A stretch of 64,000 nt of DNA from Erythrobacter sp. SD-21 (lineage in GTDB: Bacteria > Pseudomonadota > Alphaproteobacteria > Sphingomonadales > Sphingomonadaceae). Below the pieces are notes generated by a model. The model searched no databases. It had not been told where the DNA came from and saw nothing but the letters and a program-made list of their open reading frames with translations. A program made the position numbers and the translations under genes. The stretch covers positions 558,001 through 622,000 of the forward strand of contig NZ_ABCG01000001.1 of assembly GCF_000181515.1 (NCBI RefSeq). The letters are read 5' to 3'. Shown piece by piece: positions 9,977 to 36,798 of the stretch (within the stretch, counting starts at the first letter, position 1; each line of letters starts with the position of its first letter).

Positions 9977-10837
9977 ATGACCCGCCGTACCGACAACCGC
10001 GAAACCCGCCTGCCCGTCCCGGACGCTATCGAGCAAGGGGGCGAGCTGCCCGCCTTCACCCCCGTCCCGCGCCAGACCAAGCGCCACGATGGCTGGACCG
10101 AGGACCGCCAGCGCCGCTTCATCGAGGCGCTCGCCGATACCGGCAGCGTCAAGGCCGCCGCCCGCGCCGTCAACATGAGCGCGGAGGGCGCCTACTACCT
10201 GCGCCGCCAGAAGGGCGCGGAAAGCTTCCGCAAGGCCTGGGCCGCCGCGCTCGATCTCGGCGTGCAGCGGATCGAGGACGTGGCCATGGAACGCGCGCTG
10301 AACGGCGTGGATGTGCCCGTCTATTCCTACGGCCAGCTCGTCGGCACGCGCACCGCCTATAACGACCGCCTGCTGATGTTCATGCTGAGAAACCGCGCGC
10401 CCGAGCGGTTTGCCGATGGCCGCGCAAAAGGCCTGGACGCGATCGGCACGATGGAACTGGAGCGCAAGAAGAAGCAATGGCGCAAGGAATGGGAGGCGGA
10501 GCGAAACAGCGTATCGGTCGCCGACATCCGCGCCAGCATCGACCGCAAGGTGGAGGCCATGCGCCAGCAGATCCTCGAACGCGAACGCCGCGAAAGCCCA
10601 CGCGTGAAGCGCCTGCGCGAGGAACTGGAGCAAGCCATGGAAGCCGACCGCGCCGCAGGCTATTGCCCCGAACGCGACCCGGACCACGAACTCTACGATC
10701 CGCACCACGGCACACGCGGGCGCTTGGGGCCGAGCTTACCCCTGCTTGTGGCGGATCGGGGTGAGAGCGAGGTGGAGGGGGACAGCGCGGAAGAGAACCC
10801 GCGCTGGCGGTCGATCAAGGATGAGGGGTGGGAGTGA
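9977..10837 (+). CDS. Uncharacterised protein with terminase-small-subunit-like HTH region
   Basis: A 286-residue protein. The ATG at 9977 was chosen because GGGAGA lies 6 bases upstream. Residues about 37-90 (DGWTEDRQRRFIEALADTG, then SVKAAARAVNMSAEGAYYLR) look like a homeodomain-type helix-turn-helix similar to those of phage terminase small subunits and related DNA-binding proteins. The second half is strongly charged and predicted helical (KKKQWRKEWEAERN and ERERRESPRVKRLREELEQ), possibly coiled coil. Base composition matches the host, unlike the low-GC restriction gene that follows. No other phage genes lie nearby. DNA binding is an inference; function unknown. Confidence 0.75.
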   Translation: MTRRTDNRETRLPVPDAIEQGGELPAFTPVPRQTKRHDGWTEDRQRRFIEALADTGSVKAAARAVNMSAEGAYYLRRQKGAESFRKAWAAALDLGVQRIEDVAMERALNGVDVPVYSYGQLVGTRTAYNDRLLMFMLRNRAPERFADGRAKGLDAIGTMELERKKKQWRKEWEAERNSVSVADIRASIDRKVEAMRQQILERERRESPRVKRLREELEQAMEADRAAGYCPERDPDHELYDPHHGTRGRLGPSLPLLVADRGESEVEGDSAEENPRWRSIKDEGWE

Positions 10838-10841
10838 CCTG

Positions 10842-10861
10842 ACAAGCTTTCCGCTTGTTTT
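10842..10861 (+). terminator. Small intrinsic terminator between HTH gene and restriction gene
   Basis: ACAAGC (10842-10847) and GCTTGT (10853-10858) pair around a 5-base loop and run into TTTT. It sits 5 bases after the HTH-gene stop and 29 bases before the ATG of the restriction-modification gene, so read-through from upstream should be limited. Confidence 0.5.
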
Positions 10862-10889
10862 GGCATCAAATTTCTCCATACGAGAAACT

Positions 10890-13745
10890 ATGCCAGCACC
10901 AAAAATCATAAAAGAACTATGCGCCCGATTTGAGCTTCACAGAGAAGCGTACAAGGCGAGTACATACAATGAAACGCAAGTTCGCCGAGAATTTATCGAT
11001 CCATTCTTGAAGGCGCTAGGTTGGGATATCGACAATGAACAAGGGTATGCTGAGGCGTACAAAGATGTCGTTCACGAGGATGCACTTAAAATAGGGGGTA
11101 ACACGAAGGCCCCAGATTATGGGTTTCGTATAGGAGGGACTCGAAAGTTTTTTCTTGAGGCAAAAAAGCCTGCCATTAATCTGAAGGAAGATATCAGCCC
11201 CGCTTTTCAACTTCGCCGCTATGCTTGGAGTGCGAAGCTTCCACTTTCGATCCTAACTGATTTTGAAGAATTCGCGGTCTATGATTGTCGGATTAAGCCT
11301 GAGAGTGCAGATAAAGCCAGTATGGCTCGCATCAAATATTATACATTTGATGATTATGTGGAGAAGTGGGATGAAATTGCCGGGATATTTTCCCGAGATG
11401 CGGTACTCAAAGGCTCATTCGATAAATACGCTACGGATAATCGAAGGAAACGCGGCACTGCCGAAGTAGATGATGCATTTCTTGAGGAGATCGAAGGTTG
11501 GCGTGCAATCCTTGCGCGCAATATCGCGCTGCGCAATCGCAACCTTAACGTAAGAGAGCTCAATAGTGCTGTTCAAAAAACCATAGACCGAATAGTTTTT
11601 TTGAGAATAGCCGAAGATAGAGGCATAGAGAACTACGGACAACTTCAGTCTATATCTGAAAGGAAAGATATATACTCAAGTCTTGCCGAACTTTTTCGCA
11701 AAGCAGACGATCGATACAATTCGGGCCTTTTTCATTTTTTCAAGACGGATGGTTCGAGCGAGACTTTAGATAATTTTACGCTTGAACTAAGTCTCGATGA
11801 CAAAGCCTTGAGGCCAATACTTCGCAGTCTTTACTATCCTAGAAGCCCCTACGAATTTTCTGTCTTACCTGCCGACATTCTTGGGCAGGTCTATGAGCGT
11901 TTTTTAGGGAAAGTGATTAGGCTGGCCGGCTCTCGAGCGGTAATTGAAGAAAAGCCAGAGGTTAAAAAAGCTGGCGGCGTATATTACACGCCTGCATACA
12001 TCGTGTCTCACATCGTCGCGACTGCGCTTGGACCTCTCCTTGAGGGGAAAACACCTGCCCAAGCATCTGGTGACGATAAGCGCACAAAAGCCCAAGATCC
12101 AATTCGCGTGATTGATCCCGCCTGCGGTTCAGGCTCGTTCCTAATTGTGGCTTACCAATATCTCTTGGACTGGTACCGCAGCAAATACATTTCAGATGAC
12201 CCGCTAAAGTACACAGGGGGCAAAGATCCGAAACTGGTACAGGTCGCTCAGGGTGACTGGCGATTGACGATCGCAGAACGCAGGCGAATACTCCTCACCC
12301 ACATATATGGTGTCGATATTGATGCGCAAGCCGTTGAAGTCACTAAGCTATCCCTTCTTCTGAAAGTCCTAGAAGGGGAAAATGCTGACGCGATCGCGCG
12401 CCAAATGGACTTTTTCAACATAAGGGTTCTCCCGGACCTCGGGAGCAATATAAAGTGCGGAAATTCCTTAATTGAAAACGATATATACTCGCAAATTTCT
12501 TTTGAGTTGTCAGACGAGGAAGAAGAGAAAATAAACCCTTTCGACTGGCAAGGGTTTCTACGCGCAGCTACTGACAAGAATGGTTTCGACGCGATCATCG
12601 GCAACCCCCCATACGTCCTCCTTCAAGATGCCAATCGACAAAGAACTCTAGAAAGCTATTATGATAGCCACTATACCGTCGCCAGTTTTAAGCGAGATCT
12701 TTACCATCTCTTTATAGAACGCGCTTCGCAATTACTATCCAGAAGAGGTATTTTATCCTTTATCGTCCCTTCTAATTTTCTGACGAACAACTACGCTACA
12801 GCCCTAAGAAAACTGATGTTAGAAAACCAGCAGCTCGAGACGGTAACGAACTTAAAAGGACGCGTTTTCCAGAGTGCGAGTGTCGACACTTGTATCTTTG
12901 TTCTTCGAAGGGGTGGAGAAAGCAAAGATCTCAATTTCTTTGAAGCTTCGGCATCTGAATCCGGGCTCAAAAGTCCGCGCATCACGAAAATACCCTATTC
13001 AAGAATATTGGCGGATGAAGCACATCTAATTGTGCCCGCTTCGGATGCTGATGATACCGTTTTATTAAAAATGGCGAAAGTTGGTCGACCCCTTGGCCAG
13101 CAAGCATATGTGAATTTCGGGAAGCAGTTGAGGGATAGGAAAAAGTTTCCCAGTGATGTCCGCGAAATTGACGAACCCACGCCTCCGCCGGGATATGCTC
13201 TTTGCTATACCGGTAAGGATGTTGAGCCATACCTCGCGCGATGGTCTGGTTTAGCATGCAAAAAAAGTCGAACAGCCAAGCGTGGCGGGTGTTGGGATGA
13301 TTCGAAACACTCCGGAAATCCAAAACTTGTCTGCAGGCAGGTAGGAAAGCACCCTGTTTTCGGATTGGACTTAAACGGCTATCAATGCCTCAACACCATT
13401 TTTATGGTTAATCCATTCGAAGAATCCGACCCTTACTATCTACTCGCGGTCCTGAATTCATCTGCGATAAGATTTTATTGGAATAAGAAATTTAGCGACG
13501 GCCGCGATACATTTCCCAAGATTAAGGGCACCTACCTCAAAGAATTGCCGGTGGTACCGTACGACGAACGTTCAACATCGCACACCAATCTTGTAAAGTG
13601 GTGCCATCAAATTGTCACAAGCTACGAAAAATTGAATAAAGCACGCATGGCAACTCAAAAAATTCGTCTTCGACAAAAAATTGATGGGTTACAAAAATCA
13701 ATCGATGACTGCGTTTTAGAAATCTATGGCGTCACGATTGAGTAG
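10890..13745 (+). CDS. Type IIG (Eco57I-like) restriction-modification enzyme
   Basis: Single-chain endonuclease plus N6-adenine DNA methyltransferase, 951 residues. Order of parts: an N-terminal PD-(D/E)xK nuclease (D76 in APDYGFR, E90-x-K92 in FFLEAKKP); a helical linker; methyltransferase motif X (GVYYTP, 363-368), motif I (DPACGSGSF, 409-417) and the catalytic NPPY motif (572-575); then a C-terminal TaqI-like target-recognition region. The ATG at 10890 was preferred over an upstream frame extension that runs into the previous gene in another frame; GAGA lies just upstream. The gene is conspicuously A/T-rich with codon use unlike its neighbours, indicating horizontal acquisition. There is no separate specificity or methylase gene beside it. 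Recognition site unknown. Confidence 0.93.
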   Translation: MPAPKIIKELCARFELHREAYKASTYNETQVRREFIDPFLKALGWDIDNEQGYAEAYKDVVHEDALKIGGNTKAPDYGFRIGGTRKFFLEAKKPAINLKEDISPAFQLRRYAWSAKLPLSILTDFEEFAVYDCRIKPESADKASMARIKYYTFDDYVEKWDEIAGIFSRDAVLKGSFDKYATDNRRKRGTAEVDDAFLEEIEGWRAILARNIALRNRNLNVRELNSAVQKTIDRIVFLRIAEDRGIENYGQLQSISERKDIYSSLAELFRKADDRYNSGLFHFFKTDGSSETLDNFTLELSLDDKALRPILRSLYYPRSPYEFSVLPADILGQVYERFLGKVIRLAGSRAVIEEKPEVKKAGGVYYTPAYIVSHIVATALGPLLEGKTPAQASGDDKRTKAQDPIRVIDPACGSGSFLIVAYQYLLDWYRSKYISDDPLKYTGGKDPKLVQVAQGDWRLTIAERRRILLTHIYGVDIDAQAVEVTKLSLLLKVLEGENADAIARQMDFFNIRVLPDLGSNIKCGNSLIENDIYSQISFELSDEEEEKINPFDWQGFLRAATDKNGFDAIIGNPPYVLLQDANRQRTLESYYDSHYTVASFKRDLYHLFIERASQLLSRRGILSFIVPSNFLTNNYATALRKLMLENQQLETVTNLKGRVFQSASVDTCIFVLRRGGESKDLNFFEASASESGLKSPRITKIPYSRILADEAHLIVPASDADDTVLLKMAKVGRPLGQQAYVNFGKQLRDRKKFPSDVREIDEPTPPPGYALCYTGKDVEPYLARWSGLACKKSRTAKRGGCWDDSKHSGNPKLVCRQVGKHPVFGLDLNGYQCLNTIFMVNPFEESDPYYLLAVLNSSAIRFYWNKKFSDGRDTFPKIKGTYLKELPVVPYDERSTSHTNLVKWCHQIVTSYEKLNKARMATQKIRLRQKIDGLQKSIDDCVLEIYGVTIE

Positions 13746-13919
13746 TCGAAGGACATCGACACCAAATTTCGGATCTCGCATTCATTAGGGTTTCAGATAT
13801 CTCATATTGCGCGTCATTACTCCGCATAATGTCCGTCCGCTTGTCGGGGGTGAGGCCTTGTTTAGAATCCTCACATAGTCCTTCTGCCAAGACTTTCGAC
13901 CAACTTCGCTTTGATCGGG

Positions 13920-13939
13920 GCAGGCCGCCGTTGGCCTGC
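13920..13939 (-). terminator. Hairpin downstream of lepA
   Basis: GCAGGCC (13920-13926) and GGCCTGC (13933-13939) form a 7-bp stem with a 6-base loop about 45 bases past the lepA stop. No U-run is visible. The remaining sequence between the restriction gene and lepA (13746-13983) returns from A/T-rich to host composition and holds no gene I can support, so the right border of the acquired segment probably lies here. Confidence 0.35.
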
Positions 13940-13983
13940 GGCCAGCTACGCTTCCGGGCGCTCGCGCATCCTTCGGATGAGGG

Positions 13984-15801
<1,818 letters not shown>

Positions 15802-30517: not shown

Positions 30518-31455
30518 CAGCCGTTCTCCTTCGCGAAATTTTCAAGGTCTTCCATGGTGACGAGGCTGACCGTGGTCGCCTCCTTTGCGATGCGGCCGAC
30601 CATCGGGCCGAGCACCTTGCCGCCCAACTCGACGAAACGCTCCACACCCGCCTCCTGCATGGCGAGCACGCTTTCGCGCCAGCGCACGCGGCCGGTAACT
30701 TGGTCGACCAATAGTGCCTGCTCTTCGGCCGGGTCGGTGACGCGGGCAGCGGTGACATTGGCAAAGAGAGGCACGGTGAAGCTGCCGGGCGCGGTATCGG
30801 CGAGCGCGATCTTCATGCGCTGGGCCGCCGGTTCCATCAGCGAGCAGTGGAACGGCGCGGAGACGGGCAGCTTGATGCCGCGCTTGATGCCGTGTTCCTT
30901 GGCCATCTCGATGGCGCGGTCGATGGCTTCGGCGTGGCCGGAAATCACGACCTGCGTGGGGTCGTTATCGTTGGCGACCTCGCACACCTGCCCTTCGGCC
31001 GCCGCTTCGGCAAGCGCGGTGGCCTTCTCGATATCGGCGCCGAGCAGCGCGGCCATTGCGCCGACGCCAATCGGCACGGCGTCCTGCATGGCGATGCCGC
31101 GCAGACGCAGCAGCTTGGCGGTCTCGGACAGGCCGAAGGCGCCGGCTGCACAAAGCGCCGAATATTCGCCGAGCGAGTGACCTGCGACACAAGTCGCCTT
31201 GTCGGCAAGCACAACGCCGAATTCCTTTTCGAGCACGCGCAGGGTGGCGATGGAATTCGCCATGATTGCGGGCTGCGCGTTGCTGGTGAGCGTGAGTTCG
31301 CTTTCCGGACCGTCCTTCATCAGCGCAGAAAGCTTCTGGTTCAGCGCGTCGTCGACTTCCTCGAACACCTCGCGAGCGTGCGCGCTGGCTTCGGCGAGCT
31401 CGACGCCCATGCCGACTTTCTGGCTCCCCTGACCGGGGAAGATGAATGCAGTCAT
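30517..31455 (-). CDS. fabD: Malonyl-CoA:ACP transacylase FabD
   Basis: Loads malonyl groups onto acyl carrier protein. 312 residues with FPGQGSQKVGMG at the N-terminus, the nucleophile S94 in the GHSLGEY box, and the catalytic histidine in VSAPFHCSLM. It is the first gene of the fabD-fabG pair. It lies 24 bases downstream of the S66 peptidase gene on the same strand, so it could be read from the ldcA promoter as well as its own. A ribosome binding site (AAGGAGAG) precedes the ATG. Confidence 0.97.
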   Translation of the reverse strand: MTAFIFPGQGSQKVGMGVELAEASAHAREVFEEVDDALNQKLSALMKDGPESELTLTSNAQPAIMANSIATLRVLEKEFGVVLADKATCVAGHSLGEYSALCAAGAFGLSETAKLLRLRGIAMQDAVPIGVGAMAALLGADIEKATALAEAAAEGQVCEVANDNDPTQVVISGHAEAIDRAIEMAKEHGIKRGIKLPVSAPFHCSLMEPAAQRMKIALADTAPGSFTVPLFANVTAARVTDPAEEQALLVDQVTGRVRWRESVLAMQEAGVERFVELGGKVLGPMVGRIAKEATTVSLVTMEDLENFAKENG

Positions 31456-31479
31456 GAATCTCTCCTTGTGCGGGGCCGC

Positions 31480-32331
31480 TTAGGCGCGTGCGCCGCAAGC
31501 CTCAAGGCCGAAGGGGACGATCCTGTTGTCAGAGGTGTGACCGATGGCAGCGCGCCCGAGGTATTCGATGCCGTAGCGTTCGCACCATCCGCGCACGATT
31601 TCTTCGGCGTTGGCACCGAAGGGGCGGTCGTTCTCGGGCACGGCGGTCACCTCGCCGAGCCGTATCCCGGCCACGCCCTGCATGTGCTCCACCAGATGGA
31701 ACATCAGCCGGTCGATGGCATATTCGTATTCGCCCACTTCCTCGATCAGCACCTCGTGCCCATCCAGAGAAGGCATGAACTGCGTGCCGACCAGCATCGC
31801 CAGCGTATAGAGATTGAACGCCGCTACTGGCCTGCCGGACAGGGAGGGTTCAAGTCCGGCATCCTCGCCCGCCATCCAGCAGAGGACGCGGCGGATCGCT
31901 TCTTCCCCGCCCTCACGCTTTACATCCACCGGCATTGGCGCGTGGATCGGTTTTCCAATCCCCGCGCGGTAGAGCGCGCCGAGGAGGAAACCCATGTCGG
32001 AGTAGCCGAGAAAAGCCTTCTCGCGCGCGGCGGGCTGGACCCGTCCGATGAAGTTCGCGGCAATGCGGTTGGAGCCGTATCCACCCTTGGCGAACCACAC
32101 GGCGTCGAAAGCGGCGTCGTTCGCGCATTCGAGCAAGGTGCCGAGCCGCACGGCGTCCGCCCCGGCGAAATGTCCGTCCTCGACGAAGCATTGCTCGTGG
32201 AAATGGAGCGCGATGTCCGGAAATTCCTCCGCCGCCAGCGCCAGAACGGCCTCGGCGTATTTGCGTTTGAGCGGTGTCGCGGGGGCGCAGATCGCCACTT
32301 TTCGGATCGGTCGGTGCACGGGTGCGACCAT
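31480..32331 (-). CDS. ldcA: Muramoyltetrapeptide L,D-carboxypeptidase (S66, LdcA-like)
   Basis: Cytoplasmic serine peptidase that removes the terminal D-Ala from recycled tetrapeptides. 283 residues, close to the family norm. The nucleophile S111 lies in FLGYSDMGFLLGAL; the acid residue is in LIEEVGEYEYAIDRL and the histidine in IGHTSDNRIVPFG near the C-terminus. It is divergent from an Mpl-like ligase with only about 40 bases between starts, which fits coordinated muropeptide recycling. No signal peptide is seen. Confidence 0.92.
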   Translation of the reverse strand: MVAPVHRPIRKVAICAPATPLKRKYAEAVLALAAEEFPDIALHFHEQCFVEDGHFAGADAVRLGTLLECANDAAFDAVWFAKGGYGSNRIAANFIGRVQPAAREKAFLGYSDMGFLLGALYRAGIGKPIHAPMPVDVKREGGEEAIRRVLCWMAGEDAGLEPSLSGRPVAAFNLYTLAMLVGTQFMPSLDGHEVLIEEVGEYEYAIDRLMFHLVEHMQGVAGIRLGEVTAVPENDRPFGANAEEIVRGWCERYGIEYLGRAAIGHTSDNRIVPFGLEACGARA

Positions 32332-32373
32332 GCCTGCTTGTCATTGCGCTTACAACTGCATAGCGAGGCCGCA

Positions 32374-33801
32374 ATGACCGACTTCCCCAGCCCTGATGAG
32401 CTTTTCGCGCGCCCTTTCTTCTTCGTCGGCATCGGCGGATCGGGAATGCTGCCGCTGGCGCAAATCCTCAAGGGCCGCGGCTGCGAAGTCGGCGGCTCCG
32501 ACCGCAGCTTCGACCAGGGGCGCACGCCGGAGAAATTCGCCGCGCTCGAACGGCAGGGTTTCCAGCTTCACCCGCAGGACGGCAGCGGCATCGTCTCGGG
32601 CGAGCAAATCGTGGTCGCCTCCGCCGCGATCGAAGACAGCGTGCCCGAGATAGACCGCGCCAACGAACTTGGTTGCCTGCGCCTGACCCGCGCCGAGCTC
32701 AACTCGATCCTCTTCAACACCAGCGGGGCGGGGATTGCCGTCGCCGGGACCAGCGGCAAGTCGACCGTTACGGGAATGCTGGGCTGGATTCTGGAAGCTA
32801 CTGGCCGTGCACCTACGATCATGAACGGCGCGGTGATGAAGAATTTCGTCTCGCCCGAACGCCCCTTTGCCAGCGCCGTGGTGGGCAGCCAGAGCATCTA
32901 TGCCAGCGAAGTCGACGAAAGCGATGGCTCCATCGCCCTCTATCGCCCCGCCGTCGGCGTGCTGCTCAACGTCAGCCTCGACCACAAGAGCATGGAGGAG
33001 TTGCGCCAGCTGTTCGGCGACTATCTCTCGCGCAGCCGCATCTCGGTGATCAACGCCGATGACGAGGAAGCGCTGGCACTGCTCCCGCAGGCGAAGGACG
33101 TGATCACCTTCGGGATCGAGCAGGACAAGGCGCAGATCAGCATCGTGCCGGGCAGCATTGCCGAAGGTCCGGTTCGGCAGGCGGCAATGGTGATCGACCG
33201 CCACGACAAGTCCGAACAAGCGCTGCGGCTCAACATGCCGGGCCGGCACAATCTTTCGAACGCGCTCGCGGCCATCGCGGGCGCAGCGGCGGCCGGCGTA
33301 CCCGTCGCCGCCTCGGTCGAGGCGCTCGCCGGTTTCGAAGGACTAGCCCGCCGCTTCGATATCGTGGGGACGAGCCACGCGGCCATTACCGTGATCGACG
33401 ATTTCGGCCATAACCCCGAGAAATGCGCGGCCACGCTCCGCACCCTGCGCGCCCATAGCGGCCGGGTGCTCGTCTTCTTCCAGCCGCACGGTTACGGCCC
33501 CTTGCGCCAGATGGGCGACGAGCTCGCGCAGGTCTTCGTCGATGAGCTGGCCGAGGACGACCGCGTGCTGATGTGCGACCCGGTCTATTTCGGCGGCACG
33601 GTCGATCGTAGCGAAGGGAGCGAACGGATCGTCCGATTGGTGGAGCAGGCGGGAGGGCGCGCCGAATATATCCCTACACGCAAGGCCATCGAGGATCGCC
33701 TCGTCAACCTCGCGAGTCCCGGGGACCGGATCGTGGTGATGGGCGCGCGAGACGACACGCTATCCGAATTCGCGCGCAAGGTCTTCGCCCGCCTGTCCTA
33801 G
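32374..33801 (+). CDS. mpl: Mpl-like Mur ligase (UDP-MurNAc tripeptide ligase family)
   Basis: 475-residue Mur ligase. Three domains can be followed: an N-terminal UDP-binding part (FFVGIGGSGMLPLAQIL), a central ATPase domain, and a C-terminal glutamate-ligase domain (IDDFGHNPEKCAATL, then RVLVFFQPHGYGPL). The ATP loop reads GTSGKST (125-131) rather than the usual GTHGKTT. The head-to-head pairing with ldcA suggests it reattaches murein tripeptide to UDP-MurNAc during recycling (Mpl role), although a MurC-like activity cannot be excluded from sequence. The ATG at 32374 was chosen; the longer upstream frame is antisense to ldcA. Confidence 0.85.
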   Translation: MTDFPSPDELFARPFFFVGIGGSGMLPLAQILKGRGCEVGGSDRSFDQGRTPEKFAALERQGFQLHPQDGSGIVSGEQIVVASAAIEDSVPEIDRANELGCLRLTRAELNSILFNTSGAGIAVAGTSGKSTVTGMLGWILEATGRAPTIMNGAVMKNFVSPERPFASAVVGSQSIYASEVDESDGSIALYRPAVGVLLNVSLDHKSMEELRQLFGDYLSRSRISVINADDEEALALLPQAKDVITFGIEQDKAQISIVPGSIAEGPVRQAAMVIDRHDKSEQALRLNMPGRHNLSNALAAIAGAAAAGVPVAASVEALAGFEGLARRFDIVGTSHAAITVIDDFGHNPEKCAATLRTLRAHSGRVLVFFQPHGYGPLRQMGDELAQVFVDELAEDDRVLMCDPVYFGGTVDRSEGSERIVRLVEQAGGRAEYIPTRKAIEDRLVNLASPGDRIVVMGARDDTLSEFARKVFARLS

Positions 33802-35507
33802 CGTATTTCGGCGGCCCCAGCCGGTTCGACGATTTCGACTTCACCATCCTTAGTCACGATGACGCTTCGGTTTCGCCCGGCGTGCTTTGCCGCATAAAGC
33901 GCGCGGTCCGCGTCAGCGAAGACTGCGTCTCGCGATCGGCCTTGCCCGAGGGAACCGCCAACGCTGATCGTTGCGTGCGGGATACCAAGGGGGTTCTCCC
34001 CGTTCCTGCGGTCGACGGCGAGGCGAAGGCGTTCGGCAGCCTTGCGGACGTCGAGCTCGTCCTCGCAGGCGAAAATGAGCGCGAATTCCTCTGCGCCCAG
34101 ACGCTAGATGGTGGAGCCTTCGACATTTTCGAAGCTGTTCCGCATGAGGCTCGCCATGTGCCGCAGCACCGTGTCCCCCACAATATGCCCCTCGCTGTCG
34201 TTGATCGCCTTGAAATGATCGACGTCCGCGACCAGCAGCGCCTGTCCGTTCTCGAGGCGCTTCACTGAGTCGAAGGCGCGCCGGTTGCCAAGGCCGGTCA
34301 ACGGATCGCTGAGCGCCATGCGGCCAAGCTTGACCGCGTTCACCCGCGCTCGGTCCCGCTCCACCCGCAGCACCATGAAGCGGTCCCCGACGGCTGCCGA
34401 ACTGCCCAGCACCAGCAGGAGCATGGCGGCGTAGAGGAAATCGTCGACATGATAAGAGGGCCGATACCACCCGAGCGAAATCGCCAGAGTAATGACACCG
34501 CCGATGATCATCCCGGAGAACGAGATCAGGAGGTACAGGGCCGCCCGGCTTTCGTTGAACAGGGCCACGGCGATCAGTCCCAGCACCCCGAGCGCCAGCG
34601 GCAGCACCGAGGCGAGGAAGGCGCTGTGCGAAACCAGGCGAAGCGGTTCTAGATCGATGATTGTCACGATCTTCAAAGCCGTCAGCGCTATTGTCAGGCG
34701 TTGCAGCCACTTGGGCACCGCGCCCTCTTCCAGCAGCGAAAGGATGAAGCCGACCGCCGCAGCTATCGCCAGCGCCAGCGTGAGCGTGTTGAGCTGGAAA
34801 CGCACGCCGAGCGGCGTGTTCGGGAACAGCTGGAAGATCAGCCCTGAATTGGAAACGACGAAACCCAGGAGGCCGAAGGTCATGGCCGCATGCCATATCA
34901 TGAAGCGGAAGCGCAGGGTGCGGAAGAACAGGAAATCGAAGATGATCGGCGCGATGAGCATTCCACAGATAAGGGCGTAGGTCAGCGAACGGAAGAAATG
35001 CTCCTTGCGAGCCTCCTCGCGCGTGACGAGGCGGGTGTCCCTGATCGTGGCGATCGTGCGCGGCCGCTCGAAGACGACGTCCACGACTTCGAGCGGGCTC
35101 TCCGATCTTGGAACCGGCACGCTGAACCGGGTCCGGGCGAACCACGCGCGGACCGCCATCTGCGGATCGACATCGACGAGCCTTTGCTGCCCGTCGGCAT
35201 AAATGAAGCGGACCAGCATGGACTGGTAGTTGGAAGGATCGGTTTGCCAGTAGAGGGAAGTCGAAGCAGTTGCGAACCCGCCGGGGACCTCTGCATGGGT
35301 GCGGACGAACCGATCGTTTCGTGCGAACCTACCTTCGGCGCAATCGAGTTCGCTCGCCCCCAGAGCGAGCGCCTCGGCCGAGCTGTCTGCTCCTCCGACG
35401 CAGGCCAGCGCGTCGAGGGCCAGGTCGCGGGCCTCCAGCGGCTGGGCGAGAAAGGCCCAGCCAACAGCGATTGCATACATTAAGCTTGCCAGTATGCGGC
35501 GGCTCAC
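33798..35507 (-). pseudogene. 7TM-GGDEF gene interrupted by an in-frame TAG
   Basis: A membrane-anchored diguanylate cyclase-like gene. From the GTG at 35507 (AGGGGGA just upstream) the frame encodes a signal-peptide-like start, an extracytoplasmic domain of about 180 residues, seven hydrophobic spans, and the first part of a GGDEF domain (LSDPLTGLGNRRAFD, then VADVDHFKAINDSEGH). The frame then meets TAG at 34104-34106. The same frame continues without another stop for 101 codons to 33798, beginning RLGAEEFALIF and including ATISVGG and DADRALYAAKHAGRNR, a normal GGDEF C-terminal half. So a single stop separates the two halves directly before the signature motif, itself altered to GAEEF. Recent nonsense mutation, read-through or sequencing error are all possible. 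It overlaps the mpl stop by 4 bases. Confidence 0.85.
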
Positions 35508-35623: not shown

Positions 35624-36580
35624 TCAATGCGCGCCCTTTCCGCGAAACAGCACCTTGTGGATGAGCATCGCGATGACGAACCCCAGTGCGAGACCGATGA
35701 GCGCCGATATGCCCGCATAGGTTACCCAGCCCGCCAGGCCGGACAAGGCACCGGTCGCATTCTGGACCGCGTATTCCGCGCCGTGAGCGATATCGTAGAA
35801 AAGGTCGAAGCCCAGTTCGTGCGTACCATGGACGACAATACCGCCCCCGACCCACAGCATGGCGATAGTCCCCACGAAGGATAGGGTCTTGAGCAACCAA
35901 GGCATGCCCTTCAGCAGTGCGCGCCCGATAGCCTGCGCTGTGGCCGAAGACTTTTTCGTCAGATGCAGTCCGACGTCGTCCATCTTCACGATTAGCGCGA
36001 CAGAGCCATAGACCACTACGGTCACGGCGATGGCGACCAGGGCAAGGGCCAGCCCGCGTTGCCAGAAGGTCTCGACAATTGTCTCGCTCGACAACTCGTT
36101 GAGCACGATCGCCATGATCTCAGCCGAAAGGATAAGATCGGTGCGGATGGCGCCCGCGACGCGCTGCTTCTCGAACGCCACGGGATCCTGGATCACGTCC
36201 TCGACCGTCTTGCCGTGCTTTTCGCCGCCCAGCTTTTCCATCACCTTTTCCGCGCCCTCATAGGAGAGGAAAGCCCCGCCCAGCATCAGGATCAGGATGA
36301 TTGCGCTGGGCAGGAATTCGCTGAGAAGCAGGGCGCCCGGCAGAAGAAAGATAAGCTTGTTCTTGAAACTGCCCTTAGTGATCGCCCAGATGATCGGAAG
36401 CTCGCGGGCCGGGGAAAGCCCGGTCACATAGCTCGGCGTTACGGCGGCATCGTCGATTATCACGCCCGCTGTCTTGGAACCGGCCCGTCCTGCTGCCGCG
36501 GCGACATCGTCTACAGAGGCGGCGGCGGTGCGGGCAATAATGGAAACGTCATCGAGCAGTGCTACGAGGCCGGTCGGCAT
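35624..36580 (-). CDS. DUF808 (YedI-like) inner membrane protein
   Basis: 318-residue membrane protein starting MPTGLVALLDDVSIIARTAA, the typical opening of DUF808/YedI proteins, followed by DVAAAAGRAGSKTAGVIIDDAAVTP-type sequence (residues 24-48) and about seven hydrophobic spans. The ATG at 36580 was chosen because it matches the family N-terminus and has AAGGGGAAAG upstream. Function of the family is unknown. It is divergent from rpsF with a gap of 218 bases, and a 116-base gap separates its stop from the start of the interrupted 7TM-GGDEF gene. Confidence 0.9.
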   Translation of the reverse strand: MPTGLVALLDDVSIIARTAAASVDDVAAAAGRAGSKTAGVIIDDAAVTPSYVTGLSPARELPIIWAITKGSFKNKLIFLLPGALLLSEFLPSAIILILMLGGAFLSYEGAEKVMEKLGGEKHGKTVEDVIQDPVAFEKQRVAGAIRTDLILSAEIMAIVLNELSSETIVETFWQRGLALALVAIAVTVVVYGSVALIVKMDDVGLHLTKKSSATAQAIGRALLKGMPWLLKTLSFVGTIAMLWVGGGIVVHGTHELGFDLFYDIAHGAEYAVQNATGALSGLAGWVTYAGISALIGLALGFVIAMLIHKVLFRGKGAH

Positions 36581-36798
36581 TTTGGTCTTTCCCCTTGGAT
36601 TACCGATGCAATGCGCCCCTGCCCCGCACATTCCGTCGCGGCAAGGGCCAAGATCGCTTGCATTATGCGCAAATCCCGCTATGTGCGCGCATCCCTTGCA
36701 TCCGGACCTGCCGGAACGGGGATACCCAAGAAAGCCGGAGGGGCCCCGCAATCCCGCGGACAAGCCAGCGATCGGCCAGACAGTGAAAGGACAAGAGC

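Follow-up and report, generated by a model that had tools for sequence, protein, structure and literature searches.

A probable young pseudogene of a 7TMR-DISM diguanylate cyclase in Erythrobacter sp. SD-21

A gene for a diguanylate cyclase with a 7TMR-DISM membrane sensor in Erythrobacter sp. SD-21 is probably a young pseudogene of a dispensable cyclase at an early stage of decay, judging from its sequence and from comparison with its genus. It lies in a window of 64,000 nucleotides (GCF_000181515.1, NZ_ABCG01000001.1, positions 558,001-622,000 of the forward strand), the whole stretch of DNA analysed here. Two changes four codons apart – an in-frame TAG and an alanine in the signature motif – each abolish the active site or disable it, so suppression of the stop should yield no cyclase. 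As biology this would be routine gene decay, another instance of a well-known kind. The loss of a signalling gene appears to have been caught very early, in a genus with the site empty in 35 of the 58 genomes examined. The case is instructive in that, given the second lesion, stop suppression becomes irrelevant to cyclase activity.

An interrupted frame with a second lesion

The cyclase frame, 570 codons long, occupies minus-strand positions 35507 to 33798. Translation confirmed a first-pass annotation of the window, which had described a single frame broken by a lone TAG at 34104-34106, with RLGAEEF directly after it. This TAG is codon 468; besides it and the terminal TAG, the whole frame contains neither another stop nor a frameshift. 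The gene starts with a GTG at 35507, with GGGGGAG just upstream (by eye), and its terminal TAG overlaps the stop of a convergent frame in which Mur-ligase domains occupy residues 526-968. The features considered below are as follows.

34104..35507, minus strand: open part of the cyclase gene, GTG start to TAG, 467 aa; N terminus resembling a signal peptide (by eye), with the 7TM sensor and the initial part of the GGDEF domain
34104..34106, minus strand: in-frame TAG, codon 468; a Tyr or Phe codon in 22/22 orthologues
33798..34103, minus strand: frame beyond the stop, with the remaining GGDEF domain and its own terminal TAG (translation and Pfam)
34083..34097, minus strand: GAEEF, altered signature motif; GGEEF in 22/22 orthologues
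34380..34988, minus strand: 7TMR-DISM_7TM domain (PF07695; Pfam, E 4.6e-21)
33867..34313, minus strand: GGDEF domain (PF00990) with the stop read as X (Pfam, E 2.4e-25)
35624..36763, minus strand: DUF808 protein, upstream neighbour; in the flank of 21/22 orthologues
30847..33801, plus strand: open frame with the convergent Mur-ligase gene, ending in TAG; adjoins 22/22 orthologues

Consistent with a 7TMR-DISM sensor, the PF07695 match scores 76.1 bits against a curated cut-off of 29. The PF00990 match splits at the TAG, covering profile positions 2-72 of 161 before it and 78-161 after it, and the stop therefore falls within the GGDEF domain. With X in place of the stop, a single match spans positions 2-161 of 161. 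The frame beyond the stop is more than a chance reading frame, because it aligns with 22 orthologues through the domain. An active cyclase should carry GG[DE]EF and have its whole domain in one open frame; the window gene has GAEEF, and the TAG at codon 468 divides the domain.

GAEEF had already been singled out in the first-pass annotation as a departure from GG[DE]EF, and all 22 orthologues bear this out with GGEEF. These orthologues share 64 invariant columns, of which the window gene keeps 63: 46 of 46 before the stop and 17 of 18 after it, the exception being the alanine at the motif's second glycine. In a leave-one-out control, the orthologues themselves showed 0 to 3 departures, except for one (L149) with 8. 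As a count, the window's one departure is unexceptional, and to that extent it speaks against decay; its site alone is telling. The TAG stands three codons ahead of the motif, and the alanine change is found four codons past the TAG.

Published tests indicate that this change is disabling. In Vibrio fischeri CasA, a G410A substitution at the second glycine of GGEEF is reported to have behaved like a CasA deletion, with the c-di-GMP response lost (PMC8576532). For MifA and three others, the cellulose and motility effects are likewise reported to be drastically reduced by alanine at the second motif glycine (PMC11575326). Because the window gene carries the same change, a readthrough product is predicted to be inactive, and neither it nor the stopped product should make c-di-GMP.

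The intact columns before the stop could also indicate that the truncated 7TM protein has been retained as a non-catalytic regulator whose output domain is cut short, its second part missing, which we consider quite improbable. For RgsP, a 7TMR-DISM protein, a cyclase-motif change is reported not to have significantly affected growth complementation, but RgsP without its GGDEF domain was impaired in stability or function (PMC6107284). A partial GGDEF domain would be unlikely to fold, and truncation is seen in 0 of the 22 orthologues. Conservation of the columns beyond the stop is nearly as good as before it, so the pattern may reflect only that little time has elapsed. It is very improbable that the locus keeps the truncated 7TM sensor as such a regulator, or that scant GAEEF protein made by readthrough acts towards other cyclases as a silent decoy that binds GTP or a partner.

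Elsewhere in the window, positions 10001-14000 have a G+C content of 0.54 and 0.47 in 2-kb steps, compared with 0.57-0.68 in the remaining window. This low-G+C stretch falls within a long plus-strand frame (10746-13745) and is possibly acquired DNA, judging from its composition.

Orthologues and dispensability in the genus

We searched 60 genomes of the same genus, the window's own included, and found matches in 22 further genomes that span almost all of the query at 39-62% identity. Because the Mur ligase adjoins 22 of 22 and DUF808 21 of 22 (the sole exception being L141, with DUF808 not seen in its flank), we treat these matches as positional orthologues. Their frames were picked as the longest holding G.[DE]EF, with the second glycine left free, and the frame lengths match those of the listed open frames. 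Matches from a contig search (L050-L058) were rejected as orthologues; they are distant, at 31-42% identity. Outside the genus, a sample of 149 genomes of the family gave a best-scoring match with 36% identity.

All 22 orthologue frames have a single, terminal stop, and none is truncated. At the position of the window's TAG, 14 encode Tyr (TAT in 9, TAC in 5) and 8 encode Phe (TTC in 7, TTT in 1), and TAG is found in 0 of 22, so the stop is not conserved in relatives. The expectation that related cyclases carry an aromatic residue or other sense codon here thus held throughout the comparison within the genus. As would be expected of a pseudogene, intact orthologues – the 22 open frames – occupy the same place.

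To place the gene among its neighbours, we compared the region bounded by the Mur-ligase and AMP nucleosidase genes in 55 other genomes and the window. The cyclase is present in 21 of these 56 regions (window included), and the other 35 gave no match at E < 1e-20. With G184 and G185 (L144 and L141) counted as carriers from the orthologue search, and G193 and G198 left out, 23 genomes have the gene and 35 do not have it at the site, among 58 of the 60. On this distribution the genus can dispense with the cyclase gene. A 56-tip tree of two flanking proteins, rooted at its midpoint, requires 7 changes in presence under parsimony. Among the 35 gene-less genomes, the Mur-ligase and DUF808 matches stand 19-118 bases apart in 24 and 636-666 bases apart in 11; the wider gaps, of ~640 bases, are found at loci L224, L232, L236, L239, L240, L245, L248, L250, L253, L259, and L264.

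One genome shows a distinct pattern at this site. G152 (L149 / L214) pairs with the window's genome on the Mpl and AMP nucleosidase tree, with identities of 95% for Mpl, 98% for AMP nucleosidase and 100% for S6; its DUF808, at 83%, falls below the 87% of G203. The G152 cyclase occupies the same site and is 39% identical to the window's, compared with 50-63% for nine other nearby genomes on that tree. This pattern suggests that the cyclase gene was replaced in place in one lineage.

The window's genome contains 19 PF00990 matches at E <= 0.001, that is, 18 besides the window gene, and the window gene is the only one of the 19 with an internal stop. No internal stop was found among the GGDEF matches listed from 21 genomes, a comparison that gives no base rate and in which the window's own broken match stands below those listed. 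Three of the genome's own matches (L012, L015, and L019) have unusual motifs (RGEEF, GGDEY, and an SGGNF stretch), and degenerate GGDEF members may already exist in this genome.

The genus can do without this gene, and the genome has 18 further GGDEF matches, so loss of the cyclase would be tolerated. The first-pass annotation had proposed that a real stop would alter c-di-GMP signalling. The same 18 matches and the gene's absence from this site in 35 of 58 genomes weaken the expected effect.

Decoding of the stop and age of the damage

Amber suppression, which the first-pass annotation had left as an option, or programmed readthrough would give some full-length protein; we consider either extremely improbable. 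A search for a tRNA that could decode TAG covered 43 tRNA matches in the genome (Rfam tRNA family, with ARAGORN on all 43 places) and found none with a CTA anticodon; the lone 'tag' anticodon belongs to a tRNA-Leu. Neither tRNA-Ile(gat) nor tRNA-Ala(tgc) is among the 43 matches, which implies that the assembly may miss a tRNA-bearing stretch. Release factor 1 (TIGR00019) is present, its score of 487.9 bits exceeding the cut-off of 423.25. TAG also serves as an ordinary terminator: it closes 16 of the 22 orthologues and, within the window, the Mur-ligase and AMP nucleosidase frames. Given this tRNA content, RF1, the ordinary use of TAG and the GAEEF that a full-length product would carry, we rejected amber suppression.

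Bacterial genes that are maintained apart from an in-frame stop are reported to be widespread, most of them assumed by the authors to be without functional recoding (PMC7918605), and Shigella dgcQ and dgcN with nonsense codons are reported to give bands matching full-length protein (PMC11327459). Against readthrough here, the 101 nt surrounding the stop show no better folding than shuffled sequences (z -0.16), a result on which we rejected a structured readthrough signal, and the TAG is absent from the orthologues. We also rejected an internal restart of the kind proposed for Shigella. Of the in-frame ATG, GTG, or TTG codons from codon 441 onward, those at 443, 447, 451, and 455 precede the TAG, and the sole one beyond it, at 551, lies far past the motif; rescue of that type is therefore unavailable.

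On the preferred reading, young decay, ribosomes would halt at the TAG through release factor 1. The product would be a 467-residue membrane protein with a partial GGDEF domain, probably unstable and devoid of cyclase activity, and any readthrough product would be inactive as well owing to GAEEF.

To estimate the age of the damage, we counted unique residues in the window gene and its closest orthologue (L129), with L132 and L130 as outgroups. The counts for window and L129 are 14 and 26 over residues 30-390, 3 and 3 over 391-467, and 4 and 4 over 469-550. After the stop, pN/pS – a coarse measure, with synonymous differences near saturation – is 0.37, 0.43, and 0.34 in pairs that include the window; pairs that exclude it give 0.34, 0.34, and 0.35. 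Apart from the motif alanine, these measures give no clear excess of change in the window frame; the damage is therefore either recent relative to the divergence of these species or, in the case of the TAG, a reading error. Both lesions are known from one genome of the species, so either may be unfixed or even spurious; the genome searches drew on one genome per species.

The missing excess of change fits a young pseudogene and a reading error alike. If the TAG were a base-calling or assembly error, the gene would be full length, would keep GAEEF and would probably be catalytically silent, a reading that we regard as unlikely. A single base separates the TAG from the Tyr codons found in 14 orthologues, and the remaining frame looks maintained. 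The freedom from further stops and frameshifts would also fit a functional gene in which one base is wrong. The genome, though, is rated 100% complete and 0.25% contaminated, in 19 contigs, and a stop interrupts only 1 of its 19 GGDEF matches. An error would also have to land by chance four codons from a motif-breaking change; because error leaves that second lesion unexplained, we consider it the less likely account. A recent nonsense mutation, among the origins that the first-pass annotation had listed, is best supported, with Tyr or Phe in the orthologues and no clear excess of change elsewhere.

Comparison with known cyclases

The window gene shares its domain order, length, and conserved columns with 7TMR-DISM cyclases (PF07695 plus PF00990), but its GGDEF domain is interrupted by a TAG and carries GAEEF where GG[DE]EF is usual. 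Engineered CasA and MifA mutants with GAEEF share its glycine-to-alanine change at the second motif position; these are laboratory-made and, unlike the window gene, have an otherwise intact frame (PMC8576532, PMC11575326). Shigella flexneri dgcE, dgcN, dgcQ, and dgcM resemble the window gene in that a nonsense codon interrupts a cyclase frame left open in relatives, though there the stop is reported to precede GGDEF and nearby starts can give an intact domain (PMC11327459). In the window gene, by contrast, the stop lies inside the GGDEF domain, no in-frame start stands between it and the motif, and the motif itself is altered.
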